Assembly: GCA_002254365.1 (NCBI GenBank)
Contig: NIUT01000197.1
Span: 1 to 58,286, forward strand
Length of the DNA: 58,286 nucleotides
Reading direction: 5' to 3'
Origin: Nitrospira sp. UW-LDO-01
GTDB lineage: Bacteria; Nitrospirota; Nitrospiria; Nitrospirales; Nitrospiraceae
Shown here: positions 33,638-50,667 of the stretch, piece by piece
Numbering within the stretch: position 1 is the first letter of the stretch
Layout: each line of letters opens with the position of its first letter
Translations under genes and position numbers: made by a program
Notes under the pieces: model-generated
The model's input: only the letters and a program-made list of their open reading frames with translations
Databases searched by the model: none
What the model was told of the DNA's origin: nothing

Positions 33638-34011
33638 CCATCCGGAGGAACAGTGCCCCCAGCATAGAGAGCCAGCTCATTTACCGTCAAACTCGGCCCC
33701 GATCCGGCGGATACGTGTCACACCATCGAAACTGCCGCCACGCGACTTGTACAAATCTGAGGGCAATGCGTCAGCACATACTCGGTCTGCCTGAATTCTA
33801 AGTCGGCCACAATCCCTTCCTTACACATCAGTGTGCATACGTAGTATCCGTCATCCCAGTGCTTTCTACTCCAAAGATTGATATATCACTTTATGCCAAA
33901 TGCCGACTTTCCCCCTCGGAAGAGGGATACATGAATGAACGTCGGCTCTATTACATGTAACGCCTGACCAACTGGACCAGCGTGATCAGCCTGCTTAACC
34001 CCGAGAATGCA
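33638..34011. other. Upstream region of the protease unit, with a possible RNA structure
   Basis: 374 bases with no supported gene. Bases 33902-33946 can fold into a two-level hairpin (listed separately). The AT-rich stretch ttgatatatcactttatgcc near 33877-33896 could be promoter DNA, but I cannot assign -35/-10 boxes with confidence. Confidence 0.4.
33902..33946 (+). ncRNA. Possible structured leader RNA upstream of prodomain/S8/CPBP unit
   Basis: GCCGAC (33902-33907) pairs with GTCGGC (33941-33946), enclosing CCCTC-GGAA-GAGGG (33913-33926, a 5-bp stem with a GGAA loop) and an asymmetric internal loop. It lies about 65 bases before the prodomain gene. It matches no riboswitch class I can name. 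It could also be a protein-binding dyad. Confidence 0.3.
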
Positions 34012-34401
34012 ATGTCTTACTCACCCAATCTCTCTCATCGCATAACACGACTTGTCACAATCACGACGTACGTGTCGGTTGTGTGGCTTTCCACATCCTG
34101 TCACGCCACTGATCACCATGTGACAACGCCACACTCGCTCGATTCATCTACGAAATCCCCTCCCCCTCGATTCGTCCCGAATGAACTGTTGGTCAAGTTT
34201 AAGAGCGGCGTTTCACCAGATCGAATCGCATCGGTCCTGAAAGACAGCCAAACCGACGTGATCACTGAACTCCAGCGAGGCCGTCTTTATCACGTCCGCA
34301 TTTTGGATAATCAGTCGGTTGAATCCACGATCACCCGGCTCACTTCATATCGAGAGATTGAGTATGCAGAGCCCAATTACCGGTACGAAACGCAAAAGTA
34401 G
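34012..34401 (+). CDS. Free-standing subtilase prodomain (I9-like) protein
   Basis: 129 residues from ATG 34012. A GTG ten codons upstream is possible. A hydrophobic export segment (LVTITTYVSVVWLSTSCHA) contains LSTSC, perhaps a weak lipobox. The rest (FVPNELLVKFKSGVSPDRIA ... YREIEYAEPNYRYE) is the prodomain fold seen at the head of S8 proteases: the next gene has the parallel VPGEVLVKFRDEAS ... AVEYAEPNYLYQ. No protease domain follows, because the frame stops one base before the S8 ATG. It may serve as an inhibitor or separate chaperone for the protease. Confidence 0.75.
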   Translation: MSYSPNLSHRITRLVTITTYVSVVWLSTSCHATDHHVTTPHSLDSSTKSPPPRFVPNELLVKFKSGVSPDRIASVLKDSQTDVITELQRGRLYHVRILDNQSVESTITRLTSYREIEYAEPNYRYETQK

Positions 34402-34402
34402 C

Positions 34403-36721
34403 ATGACGAGAATTGCGCTCTGCTGGGTCGGAGCCATCGTCAGCGTTACAACAGGCGTCGTCACATTGTCGGGGCTCATACCGGGCGACCGCTTGGTCTA
34501 TGCGAAGCAGAAACAAGCATCCGATAGCAAAACGGCGTTAGCAGGGGTCGCGCGTGGCCCTGCGCACTATGTTCCGGGGGAGGTGCTCGTCAAATTCAGG
34601 GATGAGGCGTCGTTACTGGGAGTCGCATCGCTGAATGTCAACATGGGTGTCAAAGAACTCAGAGCGGTCGCAGTACAGACTGGAGTGATTCATCAGTATA
34701 AGTTGGACGGCGCCTTATCGGTGGACGAAGCAGTCTTGAAGTACCAAAACAATCCCGCCGTTGAGTACGCCGAACCCAACTATCTCTACCAACTGCAAGC
34801 TATTCCCAACGATACCCAGTTCGGCACATTATGGGGGCTCCATAACACCGGTCAAACTGTGAATGGAACGGCGGGGAAGGCCGATGCCGACATTGATGCG
34901 CCGGAAGCCTGGGACATCAGCACGGGAAGCCCAAACGTGATTATTGCCGTCATTGACTCGGGCATGGCTTACGATCACCCTGATCTCGCACCCAATATCT
35001 GGACGAACCCCGGAGAGATTGCGGGGGATGGCGTTGATAATGATGGGAACGGATTGGTCGACGATGTACATGGATGGGATTTCCTCATGAACGATCACGA
35101 CCCGATGGACCCTGTCGATCTCAATCCCGGAGGTAACCCAGGACATGGCACCCATGTCGCCGGAATCATCGCGGGAACAGGAAACAACGGAACCGGAATC
35201 ACGGGAGTCATGTGGACGGCCAGACTGATGGCTCTGAAAGTCGGCGGTGTGAATCGATCCCTATCCACCACTGCCCTTGTCAGCGCGATCCACTATGCCA
35301 TTACCAAAGGTGCACGTGTAATCAACGCCAGCTTTGGCGGATCCGGGTGTAGCTTGGCCTTCTATGATGCCGTGAGTGCCGCGAATGACGCAGGGATCCT
35401 GTTTATTGCAGCAGCAAGCAACGGTGGAGATGATGGGGTCGGGGATGATAACGATAGCACCCCAAGCTTTCCTTCAAATTTCAGCGCGCCTTCAGTGTGT
35501 AATGGACAACAAAAGGCCGCGCTGGCAAACGTGATTGCGGTCGCGGCAACGGACCAAAATGATCAATTGGCGATCTTTTCGAATTTCGGGTCCACAACCG
35601 TCCAAGTGGCCGCGCCGGGAGTCAGAATCAACAGCACCGCCCCCACATCGAACGTGACACAGGTCCTGTTTCATGACTTCGATTCCAACCCGACCGGGCT
35701 CGGATACACCTTCGGGGGAGCCAACGGTACCTGGGGCTTCACCAGTTCGTCATCATTCAGCCAACCGAACAGCCTGACCGACAGTCCGACCGGAAACTAT
35801 CAGAACGGCACCGATTCCTTTGCGACCGGACCAGTGTTCTCTACCGAGGGACAACGGGGTTGCCGATTCGATAGTCGCATTCGCTACCAAACCGAGCTTG
35901 AAATCGACGAAGTTTTTGCAGATGTATCAAAGAACAGCGGAACCAGTTGGCAAGTCAGCCGGGGAATTTCTGGAGACAGCAACGACCAATTTTATCCCAT
36001 TACCTGGGGAGACATCGCAGATGGCTCAGCTGGTTCACGGTTCCGGTTCCGATTTGTATCGGATGAAAGTCTGACCTTCGATGGTGTGTATTTGGACAAT
36101 GTCCGCATCGCCTGTGTGGCAGGTACGCCATCGGGAATGACAGGCTACCAGTTTCTTCAGGGTACTTCGATGGCCACTCCGTATGTCGCGGGACTCGCCG
36201 GGTTGCTGCTCTCGGTGAATCCCACCCTCACCGTCTCCCAGCTTAGGAACGCAATCCTGAACACTGTGGATCGGAAGGCATCCTTGAGTGGGAAAGTGTC
36301 GACCGGTGGGCGTATCAATGCCCGTGCGGCGTTGGCCAGCGTGGCGGCAAACTTCACCGTCACCGTCAACAAGACCGGAGCCGGCACCGGTACGGTTCGG
36401 TCCGAGCCCGCCGGAATGACCTGCCGAGCAACATGCAATGGGCAGTTCCCCCTGGGCAGCACTGTCACCCTCACCGCAGCACCCGATTCCGGATCTGTCT
36501 TTGCAGGATGGAGCGGAGATTGCGCGGGAACCGATTCCTGCTCGCTCACCTCAAACGCAAGTATCACCGCAACCTTCAACAGTGCACCACTACTCCCTCC
36601 GCCCCCCAACAATGGCGGTGGAGGCTGCACTCTCGCCTCTGGCGCAGCTGGGGACATACTACTGCCAACTATGTTCCTCCTATCTCTCGTTGTGCTGTTA
36701 TGGAGGACAAGCCGCCGATGA
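34403..36721 (+). CDS. S8 subtilisin-like protease with GGGGC C-terminal sorting tail
   Basis: 772 residues. Signal segment (1-35), prodomain (about 55-130), then the S8 catalytic domain with AVIDSGMAY (D185), GHGTHVAG (H248), AASNGG (oxyanion N340) and GTSMATPYVAG (S589). Between the oxyanion Asn and the Ser an extra block of about 150 residues (420-571) looks like a jelly-roll binding domain. A Gly-rich repeat with paired Cys (VFAGWSGDCAGTDSC) follows. The end is GGGGCTLASGAAGD, then a hydrophobic stretch and WRTSRR, the layout of Cys-containing CTERM sorting signals (JDVT-CTERM-like). It should be surface- or membrane-anchored after processing by the overlapping CPBP protease. Confidence 0.9.
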   Translation: MTRIALCWVGAIVSVTTGVVTLSGLIPGDRLVYAKQKQASDSKTALAGVARGPAHYVPGEVLVKFRDEASLLGVASLNVNMGVKELRAVAVQTGVIHQYKLDGALSVDEAVLKYQNNPAVEYAEPNYLYQLQAIPNDTQFGTLWGLHNTGQTVNGTAGKADADIDAPEAWDISTGSPNVIIAVIDSGMAYDHPDLAPNIWTNPGEIAGDGVDNDGNGLVDDVHGWDFLMNDHDPMDPVDLNPGGNPGHGTHVAGIIAGTGNNGTGITGVMWTARLMALKVGGVNRSLSTTALVSAIHYAITKGARVINASFGGSGCSLAFYDAVSAANDAGILFIAAASNGGDDGVGDDNDSTPSFPSNFSAPSVCNGQQKAALANVIAVAATDQNDQLAIFSNFGSTTVQVAAPGVRINSTAPTSNVTQVLFHDFDSNPTGLGYTFGGANGTWGFTSSSSFSQPNSLTDSPTGNYQNGTDSFATGPVFSTEGQRGCRFDSRIRYQTELEIDEVFADVSKNSGTSWQVSRGISGDSNDQFYPITWGDIADGSAGSRFRFRFVSDESLTFDGVYLDNVRIACVAGTPSGMTGYQFLQGTSMATPYVAGLAGLLLSVNPTLTVSQLRNAILNTVDRKASLSGKVSTGGRINARAALASVAANFTVTVNKTGAGTGTVRSEPAGMTCRATCNGQFPLGSTVTLTAAPDSGSVFAGWSGDCAGTDSCSLTSNASITATFNSAPLLPPPPNNGGGGCTLASGAAGDILLPTMFLLSLVVLLWRTSRR

Positions 36722-37317
36722 GATTGAGTTTCGGCCGTAGGGGGACATCGTTACAGCAAACGCTGCGCTCCGATTCCACAATTGCAATGCAGAATGCTTC
36801 CTCTCATGTACCTTCTCCATCAAGCCACTCGGCACAAGTCCTGGCATCGTTGGGACTTCAATACCATCGTCACTTTCATCGAGATTCTGTATTTCTCTTG
36901 TTAGTAGCTCTCGGCCCGATGGTATGGCTTGCCATGATGGGATTCTCGGCATTTCAACCACTACCTTGGCATGCCCTATGGTCACCAGCGTTTCTATCCG
37001 TTACCCTCTGGCAACCTCTGTTCGAAGAATTGCTGTTCCGCGGCGCCATGCAGGGACAGGTCCTGCAAACCAGGTGGGGCCAGAAGACATGGCTTGGCCT
37101 ATCCATGGCCAACCTCATAGTCTCTCTCCTTTTCGCATTGGCCCACCTGGTCAGCCATTCCATCTCATGGGCTTTGCTCGTGTTTGCCCCTTCTCTCTGT
37201 TTCGGCTTTGTACGAGATCGCTTTGGATCCGTGTATCCTTCGATCACTCTCCATGCCTTCTATAATGCCGGGTATTTCATTCTGACCGGAGGGATCTCCC
37301 TTCTTAACTCGCGTTAA
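36718..37317 (+). CDS. CPBP-family glutamic intramembrane protease (JDVT-CTERM/MrtJ-like)
   Basis: 199 residues from ATG 36718, which overlaps the S8 stop by four bases (ATGA), so translation is coupled. Catalytic motifs of CPBP (Rce1-like) proteases: FEELLFRG (E103, E104, R108), AHLVSH (H143, H147) and HAFYNAG (H179, N183). Five to six membrane helices are expected. Such small CPBP proteases next to a GGGGC-tail protein fit the MYXO/JDVT-CTERM processing enzymes, which cut near the tail Cys. The preceding S8 protein is the likely substrate. The first about 40 residues are polar and not conserved; the true start could be the internal ATG at residue 24. Confidence 0.85.
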   Translation: MRLSFGRRGTSLQQTLRSDSTIAMQNASSHVPSPSSHSAQVLASLGLQYHRHFHRDSVFLLLVALGPMVWLAMMGFSAFQPLPWHALWSPAFLSVTLWQPLFEELLFRGAMQGQVLQTRWGQKTWLGLSMANLIVSLLFALAHLVSHSISWALLVFAPSLCFGFVRDRFGSVYPSITLHAFYNAGYFILTGGISLLNSR

Positions 37318-46548: not shown

Positions 46549-47017
46549 GACTCTCGCGTCGTCGCCTCAATCCGCATTACACACGTACCCCATATCAAGA
46601 GCCTGATTCTTGCGAACTGGATCCGGTATTTCCCTTTCTGTGCTGAGCCCTGTCAAAGTACCTGAGCTGAACCAGATCGAACCATTGCTGATTTTACCAA
46701 TGCAATGTGAGCGGTCACTGGCTGGTCTTGTGCAAAACCAGACCCAAGACCATCGCTCGCGATAGGACGTGAAAAACAACAAGCTGTGACGTGAGCGGAC
46801 AAATGATGGGGCACCCCGCTTCAGAGAGAGTCAGCCCTTATTCCGTTCCAGTAATTACCTGGTATCGACCAGGAAATCTCTGGTCATGTTGGGCAGGAAA
46901 CGAGAACGGCCGGCCTCTTGCGAGGCCGGCCGTTACACGACTCATCAAATTTGCTTTCTGCGCAGCTCTACCAGAGCCACTCAGAGAGCACTATCTGTTC
47001 CCTCTCAAAGAAGGAAC
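46549..47017. other. Convergent intergenic region
   Basis: Between the plus-strand GNA1162-like gene and the minus-strand beta-propeller gene. It holds a strong hairpin at 46905-46934 (separate entry) and otherwise only short unsupported open frames. Confidence 0.5.
46905..46934 (-). terminator. 13-bp perfect hairpin between convergent genes
   Basis: AACGGCCGGCCTC (46905-46917), loop TTGC, GAGGCCGGCCGTT (46922-46934). On the minus strand it is followed by ctcgtttcc, a modest U-containing tail, and it lies 84 bases past the beta-propeller stop. A terminator for that gene, perhaps usable from both sides. Confidence 0.6.
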
Positions 47018-48145
47018 TCAGAGTGGAACGCTTGACTGAAACGTTAGCTCCCCAGTTGCCGGATTGATTGTATAGACAAAGATATCCCTCGTATCACGAT
47101 GAACCACATAGACAAACTTTCCCGTCGGATCTACCGTAATACCTTCCGGGTCGCCGCTTGCGGCAACCTTTGGTCCCACTGTCAGCACGCCTCCCGCATC
47201 AATTGTATAGGTCGAGATAGTATCTGCCTGGCCATCTGTCACATAGGCAAACTTCCCAGACAGATCGAGTGTCACACCCTCCGGGCCACTCCCTGTGGAG
47301 ACGGGCAGACCCGGCACCGGTGCTAGTTCCCCTGTTGGATTAATGCTATACGTCGAGACAGTATTCGATTCCTCATTTGTGACATAGAGAAATGATCCGG
47401 TTGGGTCTATCGCGATCGCATTTGGGCCTAAACCAGTTGCTAAAGGCACGTTGGGCACCGTCACATCCTCCAATTTTCCCGTTGTCGCATTAATCTTATA
47501 GGTTGAGATAGTGTCTGCTCTAAAATTCGCGACATAGGCCCGTGTTCCCGTGCTATTGATGGCGACGGCATCAGGACCTCCACCCGTAGGCTTATGCTCT
47601 ACCAGTTCCAGCAACCCGTTCGCGACAATCCTATAGACCGAGACGGTATCCGAGTCAAAATTTGTGACATACACGAAGTTGTGCGCCCAATCCACGGTGA
47701 TAGAAGCAGGCCCATTTCCTGCTGGAACCGGCGAACCCAGCGATGCCAGCGCTCCGTCCGTTCCAATCGCATAGGCCGACACTGTGTCCGAACTAAAATT
47801 CGTCACATACGCCAGCTTCCTGGTGCTGTTCGCTGCAATGAACGTCGGTTGAAATCCCGCACAGATTTCCCCACTCGATGTCAAAACTCCCGAGCTCTCG
47901 ACCTTATACCACACGACCTTATGCGAAGAAGTCTTCACCGCATAGGCGAAGCCCCCAGTGATGGCAGGAGGTCCCTGGGGAACAGGAAAGCTTGGAAGCG
48001 CGGAAGGCGGGGCGCAAGAAATTGCAGAAGAAACATTGTTATTGCTAGTGCTAGTGGAACATCCAGCTCCGATTGCCGCCAAAAGACAAACAGACAGTCC
48101 AGACACCAGCAAACGAGAGCGCTGCTGAAACATAGATTGATACAT
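47018..48145 (-). CDS. YVTN/lactonase-like beta-propeller lipoprotein
   Basis: 375 residues from ATG 48145, with aggagagg upstream. An earlier in-frame start eight codons up lacks one. Lipobox LAAIGAGC. The mature part is a run of repeats of the type YVTNFSSDTVSAYAI, YVTNFDSDTVSVYRI, YVANFRADTISTYKI, YVTNEESNTVSTYSI and YVTDGQADTISTYTI, the YVTN beta-propeller, with GLGPNAIAIDPTGSF-like connecting segments. The fold is like 6-phosphogluconolactonase, but repeats of this type occur also in surface proteins. Lipid anchored, function uncertain. Confidence 0.82.
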   Translation of the reverse strand: MYQSMFQQRSRLLVSGLSVCLLAAIGAGCSTSTSNNNVSSAISCAPPSALPSFPVPQGPPAITGGFAYAVKTSSHKVVWYKVESSGVLTSSGEICAGFQPTFIAANSTRKLAYVTNFSSDTVSAYAIGTDGALASLGSPVPAGNGPASITVDWAHNFVYVTNFDSDTVSVYRIVANGLLELVEHKPTGGGPDAVAINSTGTRAYVANFRADTISTYKINATTGKLEDVTVPNVPLATGLGPNAIAIDPTGSFLYVTNEESNTVSTYSINPTGELAPVPGLPVSTGSGPEGVTLDLSGKFAYVTDGQADTISTYTIDAGGVLTVGPKVAASGDPEGITVDPTGKFVYVVHRDTRDIFVYTINPATGELTFQSSVPL

Positions 48146-48711
48146 AATGCCTCTCCTCCCCCTCTCCAATACTCCGATTGGGCGTTTTGTACGCTAACCG
48201 AACTATCGCTGCAGGCTCAAGACACTCGAGCGTATCAATGCCCCTACAGAAGATGGGGAAAGGAAACTGATGTGGCTGCCGATCGTCAATACAGTCGGCA
48301 GCCCGACTCATGCCTGTCTGAATAGCCAGGTCACACACCTCAAACCGTCTCTTGATCAGCTCCTCCACCCCGTCTATCTCCAAGACATTTACAGACCATT
48401 GACACAAATCACGAGCCGACGTACATGATCACTGAGTCCAGAACCGCTACGAAAGTTCAGTCTACGTAACGATCTATGCCGTGATGACCACATTCATAGC
48501 CTCCTACAAACGTCTCGTCCTGCGTGTCAGTCCACTGTGGTATTCTGCATGGGGGAGCTAAGGCGCGAGGATGATCGGTGATATACCTGTCACGGGTGCA
48601 ACCACAGAGGCACCGACCAAAGGGACCTCGCGCCAGAAAAGAACCCTCACTCAGCACGCGCATCGATTGTCTGTTCTGCAATAGGCTCAGGCTCAGAAAG
48701 GTACTACACGT
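48146..48711. other. Divergent intergenic region, nothing recognised
   Basis: 566 bases between the beta-propeller gene (minus) and the glycosyltransferase (plus). Open frames on both strands here lack ribosome sites and domains. I found no tRNA, hairpin with U tract or repeat I can defend. Confidence 0.45.
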
Positions 48712-49803
48712 ATGCGTGCGTTGAGGCTTCAGCTGTCAATCGTCGTGCCTACATTCAACGAGTCGCAGAATATCCCAGAGTTGCTGCGGCGCCTCGAAGT
48801 GACACTTAGCCTGACAGACTGGGAAATCATCTTCGTCGATGATGACTCGCCCGATGGGACGGCAGCCCTAGTGCGTGATATTGCACGGACCGATCCTCGG
48901 ATTCGTTGTCTGCAACGGATTGGTAGGCGCGGATTATCGTCGGCATGTATTGAAGGGATGATGGCGGCATCGGCGCCCACTATTGCGGTGATGGATGCCG
49001 ATTTGCAACATGATGAAACGATTCTGCCCACAATGCTCACCGAGATCGAGGGGGGTGCTGATGTGGTGGTAGGAACCCGTTATTCTGCCGGCGGCAGCAC
49101 GGATGACTGGAACGAATCCCGCAAGACAATGAGTCGACTCGCAACGACAACGAGCCAGCTGATACTTAAACAGCCTGTCTCCGATCCAATGAGTAGATTT
49201 TTTGTGTTGCAACGGAAGGTGCTGGAGTCGACCGTCCACCATCTCTCAGGTCTAGGCTTTAAAATCCTACTCGATATTCTCGCCACCGCCAAGCAGCCAC
49301 TGCGCATCACAGAAGTGCCCTACCGCTTCCGAGATCGTTTCGCCGGGGAAAGCAAGTTGGATGAGATGGTCGTCTGGGAATATGCCATGTTGCTGGCGGA
49401 CAAGACGATCGGTCGCTACGTCCCCGTGCGCTTTCTCGCCTTTTCAGTCATCGGCGGTATCGGTCTCTTCGTCCATATGGCGGTACTGAGCGTTGTATTC
49501 CATGGAATGGACTGGGCCTTTACCACTGCTCAATCTGTGGCGACAGGCACGGCGATGACATTTAATTTTACCCTCAATAACGTCTTAACTTACCGGGACG
49601 CTCGGTTACGAGGAGTAGCCTGGTTCAAAGGGCTCGTGAGCTTCATGCTCGCCTGTAGTCTCGGCGCTTTTGCCAACGTCGGCATCGCCTCCTATTTGTT
49701 TGAAAACCGAACACAGTGGATCGTCGCGGCGCTTGCTGGAGTCTTGATCGGCGCTGTGTGGAACTACGCGGTATCTCAAATTTATACCTGGGGGAAAAAG
49801 TAG
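48712..49803 (+). CDS. GT2 glycosyltransferase fused to GtrA-like membrane domain
   Basis: 363 residues. Residues 8-225 are a family 2 glycosyltransferase (DPM1-like): SIVVPTFNESQNIPELL, EIIFVDDDSPDGT, the nucleotide/metal-binding MDADLQHDE and SRFFVLQRKV. Residues about 235-360 contain four membrane helices of the GtrA type (FLAFSVIGGIGLFVHMAVL; TFNFTLNNVLTYRD). Such fusions move a sugar from a nucleotide donor to a lipid carrier and help flip it. The acceptor is not known. It precedes the mini-CTERM protein by 112 bases. Confidence 0.9.
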   Translation: MRALRLQLSIVVPTFNESQNIPELLRRLEVTLSLTDWEIIFVDDDSPDGTAALVRDIARTDPRIRCLQRIGRRGLSSACIEGMMAASAPTIAVMDADLQHDETILPTMLTEIEGGADVVVGTRYSAGGSTDDWNESRKTMSRLATTTSQLILKQPVSDPMSRFFVLQRKVLESTVHHLSGLGFKILLDILATAKQPLRITEVPYRFRDRFAGESKLDEMVVWEYAMLLADKTIGRYVPVRFLAFSVIGGIGLFVHMAVLSVVFHGMDWAFTTAQSVATGTAMTFNFTLNNVLTYRDARLRGVAWFKGLVSFMLACSLGAFANVGIASYLFENRTQWIVAALAGVLIGAVWNYAVSQIYTWGKK

Positions 49804-49915
49804 GTGGCGCTGTATGCGCATCCACGTTTGAGATTAAGATACTAGGCTCATGAATCATTAAGTTTGCAGGTTCCCTGCGTAAGTGATCTGTGTTTCGCTA
49901 TGGCTGGAGGTGGCC

Positions 49916-50086
49916 ATGAGTGAGAAGTTTCTATTGACCAAGCAGCAGTTGAACCGGATCAATAGCCGTGGCGGCGGTTGTACGCTGAGTAGATCAGGAA
50001 CAGTTGATGCCTTACTACCATTACTGTTCTTTACTGTCGTTGGCCTGTTGCTCGTGAGAGACAAGCGGTGTGTGAATAAACGCTGA
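49916..50086 (+). CDS. 56-residue protein consisting of a GGGC CTERM-type sorting tail
   Basis: Start ATG 49916 with ggaggtg upstream. The peptide has about 17 polar residues, then RGGGCTLSRSGTVDALLP, then a hydrophobic segment (LLFFTVVGLLLV) and a basic end (RDKRCVNKR). The same tail plan ends the S8 protease (GGGGCTL ... DILLP ... RTSRR). No signal peptide precedes it, which is odd for a sorting substrate, so this may be the stub of a larger lost protein or a small membrane peptide. It lies directly before a CPBP protease homologue. Confidence 0.6.
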   Translation: MSEKFLLTKQQLNRINSRGGGCTLSRSGTVDALLPLLFFTVVGLLLVRDKRCVNKR

Positions 50087-50124
50087 TTGCACCTGAACCT
50101 GAACATATTGCTCATGTGAGGGTT

Positions 50125-50667
50125 ATGGATCGTCCTGTTGCGCTGGAGACAACTGCGACGAAAGTCGATTAGTATCACATACTTGGTCGATTAGGGCTTT
50201 GCTGGCCGCGCGCATTCTATGCCAGCAAAGCCTTTCTTCTTTGTGTAGGGGCTGCTCCGTTGGTCTGGGCCGTCATGGCATGGGTCGTTCCCGTTCGTTC
50301 AATCTCCCTGGCCTAAGTATGGTCGTTGGGCTTTGCCTCGGTGGTCCTATGGTATCCGCTATGGGAAGAGCTGCTGTTTCGAGGATTGTTGCAAGGCGAA
50401 CTCATGGAGCGTGGTTGGACACGATGCTGGGTCTATGGTTCGAGCAGCGAGAATATTACGGTTTCCCTCTTGTTTACAGTCTTTCACCTCTGGAGCCATA
50501 GCCCAATCTGGGCTGCCCTGGTATTCTTCCCCTCGCTGGTCTTTGGCTATCTTCGTGATCAGTTCAATTCCACGGGACCATCAATTTTGATGCACATGTG
50601 GTACAACGGTGGGTATTTTTTCTTCATCGACTCCTCGCAGCCTCCCACACAGTCCGACCTCCAGTAA
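50125..50667 (+). pseudogene. CPBP glutamic intramembrane protease with two in-frame stops
   Basis: From ATG 50125 a single frame runs to TAA 50665-50667 but is broken by TAG at 50170-50172 and TAA at 50314-50316. Joined, it reads LGRLGLCWPRAFYASKAFLL ... GAAPLVWAVMAW ... LWYPLWEELLFRGLLQG ... FTVFHLWSHSPIWAALVFF ... HMWYNGGYFFF, co-linear with the CPBP protease at 36718-37317. The catalytic EExxxR, FHLWSH and HxxxN all lie after the second stop, so a 113-residue part from TTG 50326 could still be made. Likely inactivated recently. Confidence 0.7.

Follow-up and report, generated by a model that had tools for sequence, protein, structure and literature searches.

The window, meaning the whole analysed stretch of 58,286 nucleotides from Nitrospira sp. 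UW-LDO-01, harbors two loci in which a JDVT-CTERM sorting tail is encoded next to a CPBP protease of the MrtJ family (Table 1). Both families have already been described (NF033191 and NF033192, respectively), with MrtJ predicted to act as the protease that sorts JDVT-CTERM proteins. The system is named for beta- and gamma-proteobacteria in the part of PMC11980579 used here; the present case is from Nitrospira. The locus at 34-37 kb represents an intact module of a subtilase and its adjoining MrtJ, while the locus following the glycosyltransferase gene shares the tail architecture, the adjoining MrtJ and the profile scores with the described system, but differs from it in a substrate deleted down to its tail and an enzyme gene carrying two stops. 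The earlier note on this DNA had reported the second locus as a 56-residue tail ORF beside a broken CPBP homologue, co-linear with the gene at 36718 and with all catalytic motifs behind the second stop, and every point of this description is borne out by the ORF coordinates, the matches to NF033191 and NF033192, and the co-linear homology of the remnant to the intact MrtJ.

Table 1. Features of the two JDVT-CTERM/MrtJ loci in the window and of the sequences joined at the second one.
Feature	Position	Strand	Remark
Subtilase (S8) with JDVT-CTERM tail	34319..36721	+	31.6 bits (cut-off 27)
MrtJ, S8-linked clade, intact	36718..37317	+	108.1 bits vs. NF033192
Glycosyltransferase family 2 plus GtrA-type membrane domain gene, upstream of scar	48712..49803	+	Same neighbour in G005 and G075
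CTAG flanking IS tip	49842..49845	.	Full IS copies in relatives also flanked by CTAG/YTAR-like sites
IS5-type 5' end remnant, ~115 bp	49846..49960	+	Terminal repeat (two mismatches), leader, ribosome site, first 15 transposase codons
Chimeric ORF, 56 codons	49916..50086	+	Transposase codons 1-15 in frame with JDVT-CTERM tail
3' end of deleted JDVT-CTERM substrate gene (GSDH-like protein)	49961..50086	+	85% protein identity to G031 tail
mrtJ pseudogene of the GSDH-linked clade (CPBP protease of the JDVT-CTERM system)	50116..50667	+	
In-frame TAG	50170..50172	+	TGG (Trp) in G005 and G031
In-frame TAA	50314..50316	+	CAA (Gln) in G005 and G031
Residual ORF, 113 codons, all MrtJ motifs, without N-terminal membrane segments	50326..50667	+	TTG start

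The broken CPBP frame runs from a GTG, which was chosen as start by alignment with the related genome G031, to a TAA at 50665-50667, and is incomplete because of the two internal stops. Its remnant at 50326-50664 still scores 96.7 bits against the MrtJ profile (cut-off 75) and covers positions 2-97 of the 98 in the NF033192 core; the motifs EELLFR, HLWSH, and HMWYN, which include EExxxR and HxxxN, all lie 3' of the second stop. The locus has the CPBP superfamily and the invariant Cys of the tail in common with the MYXO-CTERM/MrtX myxosortase system, as far as the latter is covered by the consulted part of PMC11980579, but the enzyme reaches only 30 bits against MrtX, for which the cut-off is 180, and is above the cut-off for MrtJ. 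As judged from its reading frame, the gene should be regarded as a pseudogene of the MrtJ family rather than as a working member.

The preceding 56-residue ORF (coding part 49916-50083, stop through 50086) is equipped with the ribosome binding site ggaggtggccATG and retains the Gly-Gly-Gly-Cys, hydrophobic, and basic parts of the sorting tail, but shows no signal peptide. Its tail yields 26.5 bits against NF033191 (E 4.4e-6), just below the cut-off of 27, and is the sole one below this value among the 45 JDVT-CTERM matches listed for the genus, its direct relative in G031 reaching 28.5 bits. It is also not the tail of a larger protein: the open frame holding it consists of 67 codons, compared with 130 and 222 for the next smallest among these 45 matches. 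Residues 16-56 match the last codons of an 843-aa protein from G031 at 85%. This protein contains glucose/sorbosone dehydrogenase (GSDH) and PKD domains and is one of four GSDH-like substrates of ~840 aa in related genomes which are encoded just before an intact mrtJ and end in close relatives of the window's tail (G031, 843 aa; G055, 834 aa; G052, 831 aa; and G035, with an open substrate frame of 849 codons that extends partly beyond the locus read).

The N-terminal half of the ORF is of different origin. The 5' ends of numerous IS copies from related genomes can be aligned to the region 49842-49962 at 75-88%, and an IS on contig C146 of the window's own genome (G000) gives 85%. The part in common with these copies comprises the terminal repeat, the CTAG outside of it, and the ribosome site GAGGTGGCCATGAG; the transposase typically starts with MSDVFLLTKQQLNRIKPYFP, and the window reads MSEKFLLTKQQLNRI before passing into the tail. 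In the related elements, the transposase is spread over two overlapping frames with DUF4096 (IS4/5 family) and DDE_Tnp_1 domains, and full elements end in an inverted repeat of the same tip, the two tips being about 830-845 bp apart. The assignment to the IS5 type is based on the terminal repeat and a transposase start homologous to those of full elements, whose terminal repeat, leader, ribosome site, and first transposase codons are shared by the window; however, only ~115 bp of a roughly 845-bp element are kept, a complete transposase and the second terminal repeat are lacking, and a search of the window for the tip with up to 3 mismatches gave its only match at 49842. The junction to the tail lies at about 49961 and is in frame, the tail end beginning with Asn-Ser-x-Gly-Gly-Gly-Cys. 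With the 5' start of the IS and the tail both present and the other IS tip missing, the ORF is to be read as two pieces joined by a deletion. Its good ribosome site belongs to the transposon, and this site as well as the absence of a signal peptide follow from its start being that of an IS5-type transposase. Searching the DNA of 79 genus genomes, 13 of which gave a match, recovered both halves joined only in G000, and a protein search of 175 family genomes found residues 1-56 whole only in G000, all other matches beginning at residue 11 or later.

We consider it very probable (about 94%) that the locus is the wreck of a JDVT-CTERM/MrtJ module, produced by an IS insertion, a deletion fusing the IS start to the substrate end, and decay of mrtJ. 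At the ancestral locus, the gene for a large GSDH-like protein, secreted and ending in a JDVT-CTERM tail, would have been closely followed by that for its intramembrane protease MrtJ. An IS5-type element would then have inserted about 40 bp after the glycosyltransferase gene, and a subsequent deletion would have taken most of the IS together with nearly all of the substrate gene, bringing the Asn-Ser-x-Gly-Gly-Gly-Cys end of the substrate directly behind codon 15 of the transposase and creating, in frame by chance, the 56-codon ORF. With the substrate gone, mrtJ would have been free to decay and to gain its two stops, while the subtilase/MrtJ module at 34-37 kb stayed. The homology of both halves, their junction, the IS insertion common to the window and G005, the differing lesions of G005, and the two MrtJ clades come directly from the comparisons; we infer the order of the steps, the module's loss of function, and the absence of any product. 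The mini-protein is best read as a scar in which a transposase start is fused to the end of a deleted surface protein.

A further comparison is provided by the sister genome G005, whose contig C8 shows 91% DNA identity to positions 47000-50195 of the window and contains the same glycosyltransferase gene, the same IS insertion, and the tail. A 29-bp deletion puts IS and tail out of frame in G005, leaving a 15-residue peptide (MSEKFLLTKQRLYVQ-stop), and no start codon is found there in the tail frame. Its mrtJ carries sense codons at both stops of the window (TGG and CAA); the lesions in this copy are instead the loss of 1 bp, a TGA stop, and a full IS copy inserted at the position corresponding to 50192-50195. 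The different final lesions and the sense codons at the window stops indicate that the two lineages decayed separately after the common IS insertion, whereas the IS-to-tail deletion may have happened once, followed by an extension in G005, or twice. The remainder of the G005 mrtJ is located on contig C1 beside another IS copy, and full IS copies flank both halves of the interrupted gene on the different contigs (L034, 7396-8243; L073, 4303-5151); the split may be genuine, with the IS copies having mediated a rearrangement, or it may stem from the assembly.

These data also bear on other ways of explaining the locus. The earlier note had credited the mini-protein with a function of its own, and such a co-option as a membrane peptide or as a decoy occupying the intact MrtJ of the first module would fit with an ORF that has stayed open with its ribosome site and all parts of the tail in a genome possessing an intact MrtJ. 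Yet its N-terminus is a transposase start, the ORF is frameshifted in G005 despite the same IS insertion and whole in no other of the 175 family genomes, and it has no signal peptide, unlike all MYXO-CTERM proteins of M. xanthus, which are related to JDVT-CTERM (stated in the consulted part of PMC11980579), so that we regard this idea as unsupported and highly improbable. Just as little credence is given to the variant that a transposon start rescued the orphaned tail in the course of IS-mediated decay and gave birth to a new regulatory or decoy membrane peptide competing for the remaining MrtJ. Slightly less improbable, though still very unlikely, are assembly or sequencing errors at both stops, leaving a second MrtJ that is actually intact: each stop is a single transition, the downstream sequence is well preserved, and the source is a metagenome-assembled genome. 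However, the substrate is deleted regardless, and as the sister genome is broken by lesions of other kinds, the decay reading does not depend on the two stops of the window alone.

A working minimal MrtJ translated from the TTG at 50326 would have the whole NF033192 core and all motifs, and an equally long TTG-started ORF exists in G005, but we hold this to be hardly credible as well. There is no ribosome site visible before the TTG, the N-terminal part that intact members of this clade possess is absent, EELLFR is changed to EEPLFR in G005, and the dN/dS ratio is elevated. Between G000 and G005, the 153 comparable codons of the mrtJ remnant exhibit 7 synonymous and 14 nonsynonymous changes (5, 7, and 9 at codon positions 1, 2, and 3), corresponding to a dN/dS of 0.59, as compared to 0.11 for the glycosyltransferase, 0.33 for the beta-propeller, 0.11 for trpA, 0.04 for trpB, and 0.03 for the lipoprotein among the five neighbours. 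The last 113 codons give 0.42 (6 synonymous and 9 nonsynonymous changes), and pairs among eight relatives of the clade range from 0.12 to 0.37 over the same codons, with some intact pairs at 0.35-0.37. With 15 to 21 changes giving low power, these rates are at most weakly suggestive of relaxed constraint, and a dN/dS below 1 in the last 113 codons is equally compatible with residual constraint and mere recency of the decay; the retention of all motifs in this C-terminal ORF in both lineages is a point against decay.

A view on the relatedness of the MrtJ cores shows that the two copies of the window belong to separate clades. The tree comprises 41 cores from 43 entries above the cut-off, two entries with in-frame stops being excluded, and rests on only 96 columns, with 5 of 37 inner branches starred; the division into clades of 10 and 31 members has a support of 100/98. 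The smaller clade contains the second copy of the window and that of G005; four of its members adjoin the GSDH-like substrates (G031, G035, G052, and G055), three are intact MrtJ without a tail next door (G020, G054, and G056), and three lie beside remnants (window, G005, and G075). The larger clade includes the first copy of the window, and 29 of its members adjoin a subtilase, the other two being from G050, with a JDVT-CTERM neighbour of its own below the threshold, and from G065, where the substrate is gone. Since the MrtJ pair of the window thus falls into two well-separated clades tied to different substrates, a recent duplication of the first module into the second is ruled out. The proposal that the window holds two copies of one module, one of them intact and the other reduced to a tail and a broken enzyme, consequently stands for the state of the two loci, but finds no support if the copies are taken to have arisen by duplication. 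Relatives with an intact CPBP gene but no tail peptide, which the earlier note had named as speaking against its reading, exist in form: in four, the tail occurs solely at the C-terminus of the ~840-aa protein, and three have an intact GSDH-linked MrtJ with no tail adjacent.

Several genomes hold an intact MrtJ of one clade only, which makes the loss of one copy unsurprising. G020, G054, G055, and G056 each have a single MrtJ above the cut-off, which is of the GSDH-linked clade, and encode elsewhere a subtilase-type JDVT-CTERM protein about 70% identical to that of the window; G031 has two subtilase-adjoining mrtJ copies, both of them broken, and an intact GSDH-linked one. The window genome represents the mirror image, having retained the subtilase-linked enzyme. 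Judging from this distribution, either MrtJ clade may serve the substrate of the other one, and if the two are substitutable as predicted, losing one module would be cheap. At least five genomes combine a subtilase-type JDVT-CTERM protein with a GSDH-linked enzyme as the sole intact MrtJ found (G020, L037; G031, L038/L039; G054, L035; G055, L036; G056, L032).

Among the 79 genus genomes searched, including G000, at cut-offs of 75 bits for NF033192 and 27 bits for NF033191, MrtJ is present in 35 and a JDVT-CTERM protein in 33, all of which are among the 35; the two extra genomes are G005 and G065, and neither family was detected in the other 44. Decay of mrtJ is recurrent in the genus, occurring also in G065, G075 (contig C14), and G031. 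Beginning with the MrtJ core, contig C24 of G065 (L020, 1399-1824) is 99.8% identical to G064, but unrelated sequence takes the place of the substrate and of the first part of mrtJ. On contig C45 of G075, a 76-aa tail-only ORF with a decayed JDVT-like tail precedes an intact MrtJ of 176 aa (L046, 5660-5890, minus strand) and represents another substrate that has eroded independently, located like that of the window behind this glycosyltransferase gene. A plasmid search gave no match to similar DNA, and a scan of genome collections returned six loci, all from Nitrospira or Nitrospirae records, which were left out of the counts. The finding has the appearance of ordinary genome decay, in which an IS has left its scar on a two-gene sorting module that is already known; it calls for caution in annotation, as a short ORF preceded by a good ribosome site and ending in a textbook sorting tail can result from fusion of an IS to a gene end and should then not be annotated as a peptide, and it has survey value in recording two MrtJ clades with different partners in Nitrospira.

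Two minor observations concern the surroundings of these elements. A short derivative of the scar's IS, which has both ends but no middle and resembles a miniature element, is present on contig C13 of G031 (L078, 1621-1791), and its fused ORF reads MNEEFLLTTQQLNRIQPYSPPLFYLKE. Directly before the subtilase gene of the intact module, a lone ORF of 139 aa at 33982-34401 resembles a subtilase propeptide-type segment and may represent a truncated paralogue or an inhibitor in its own right.
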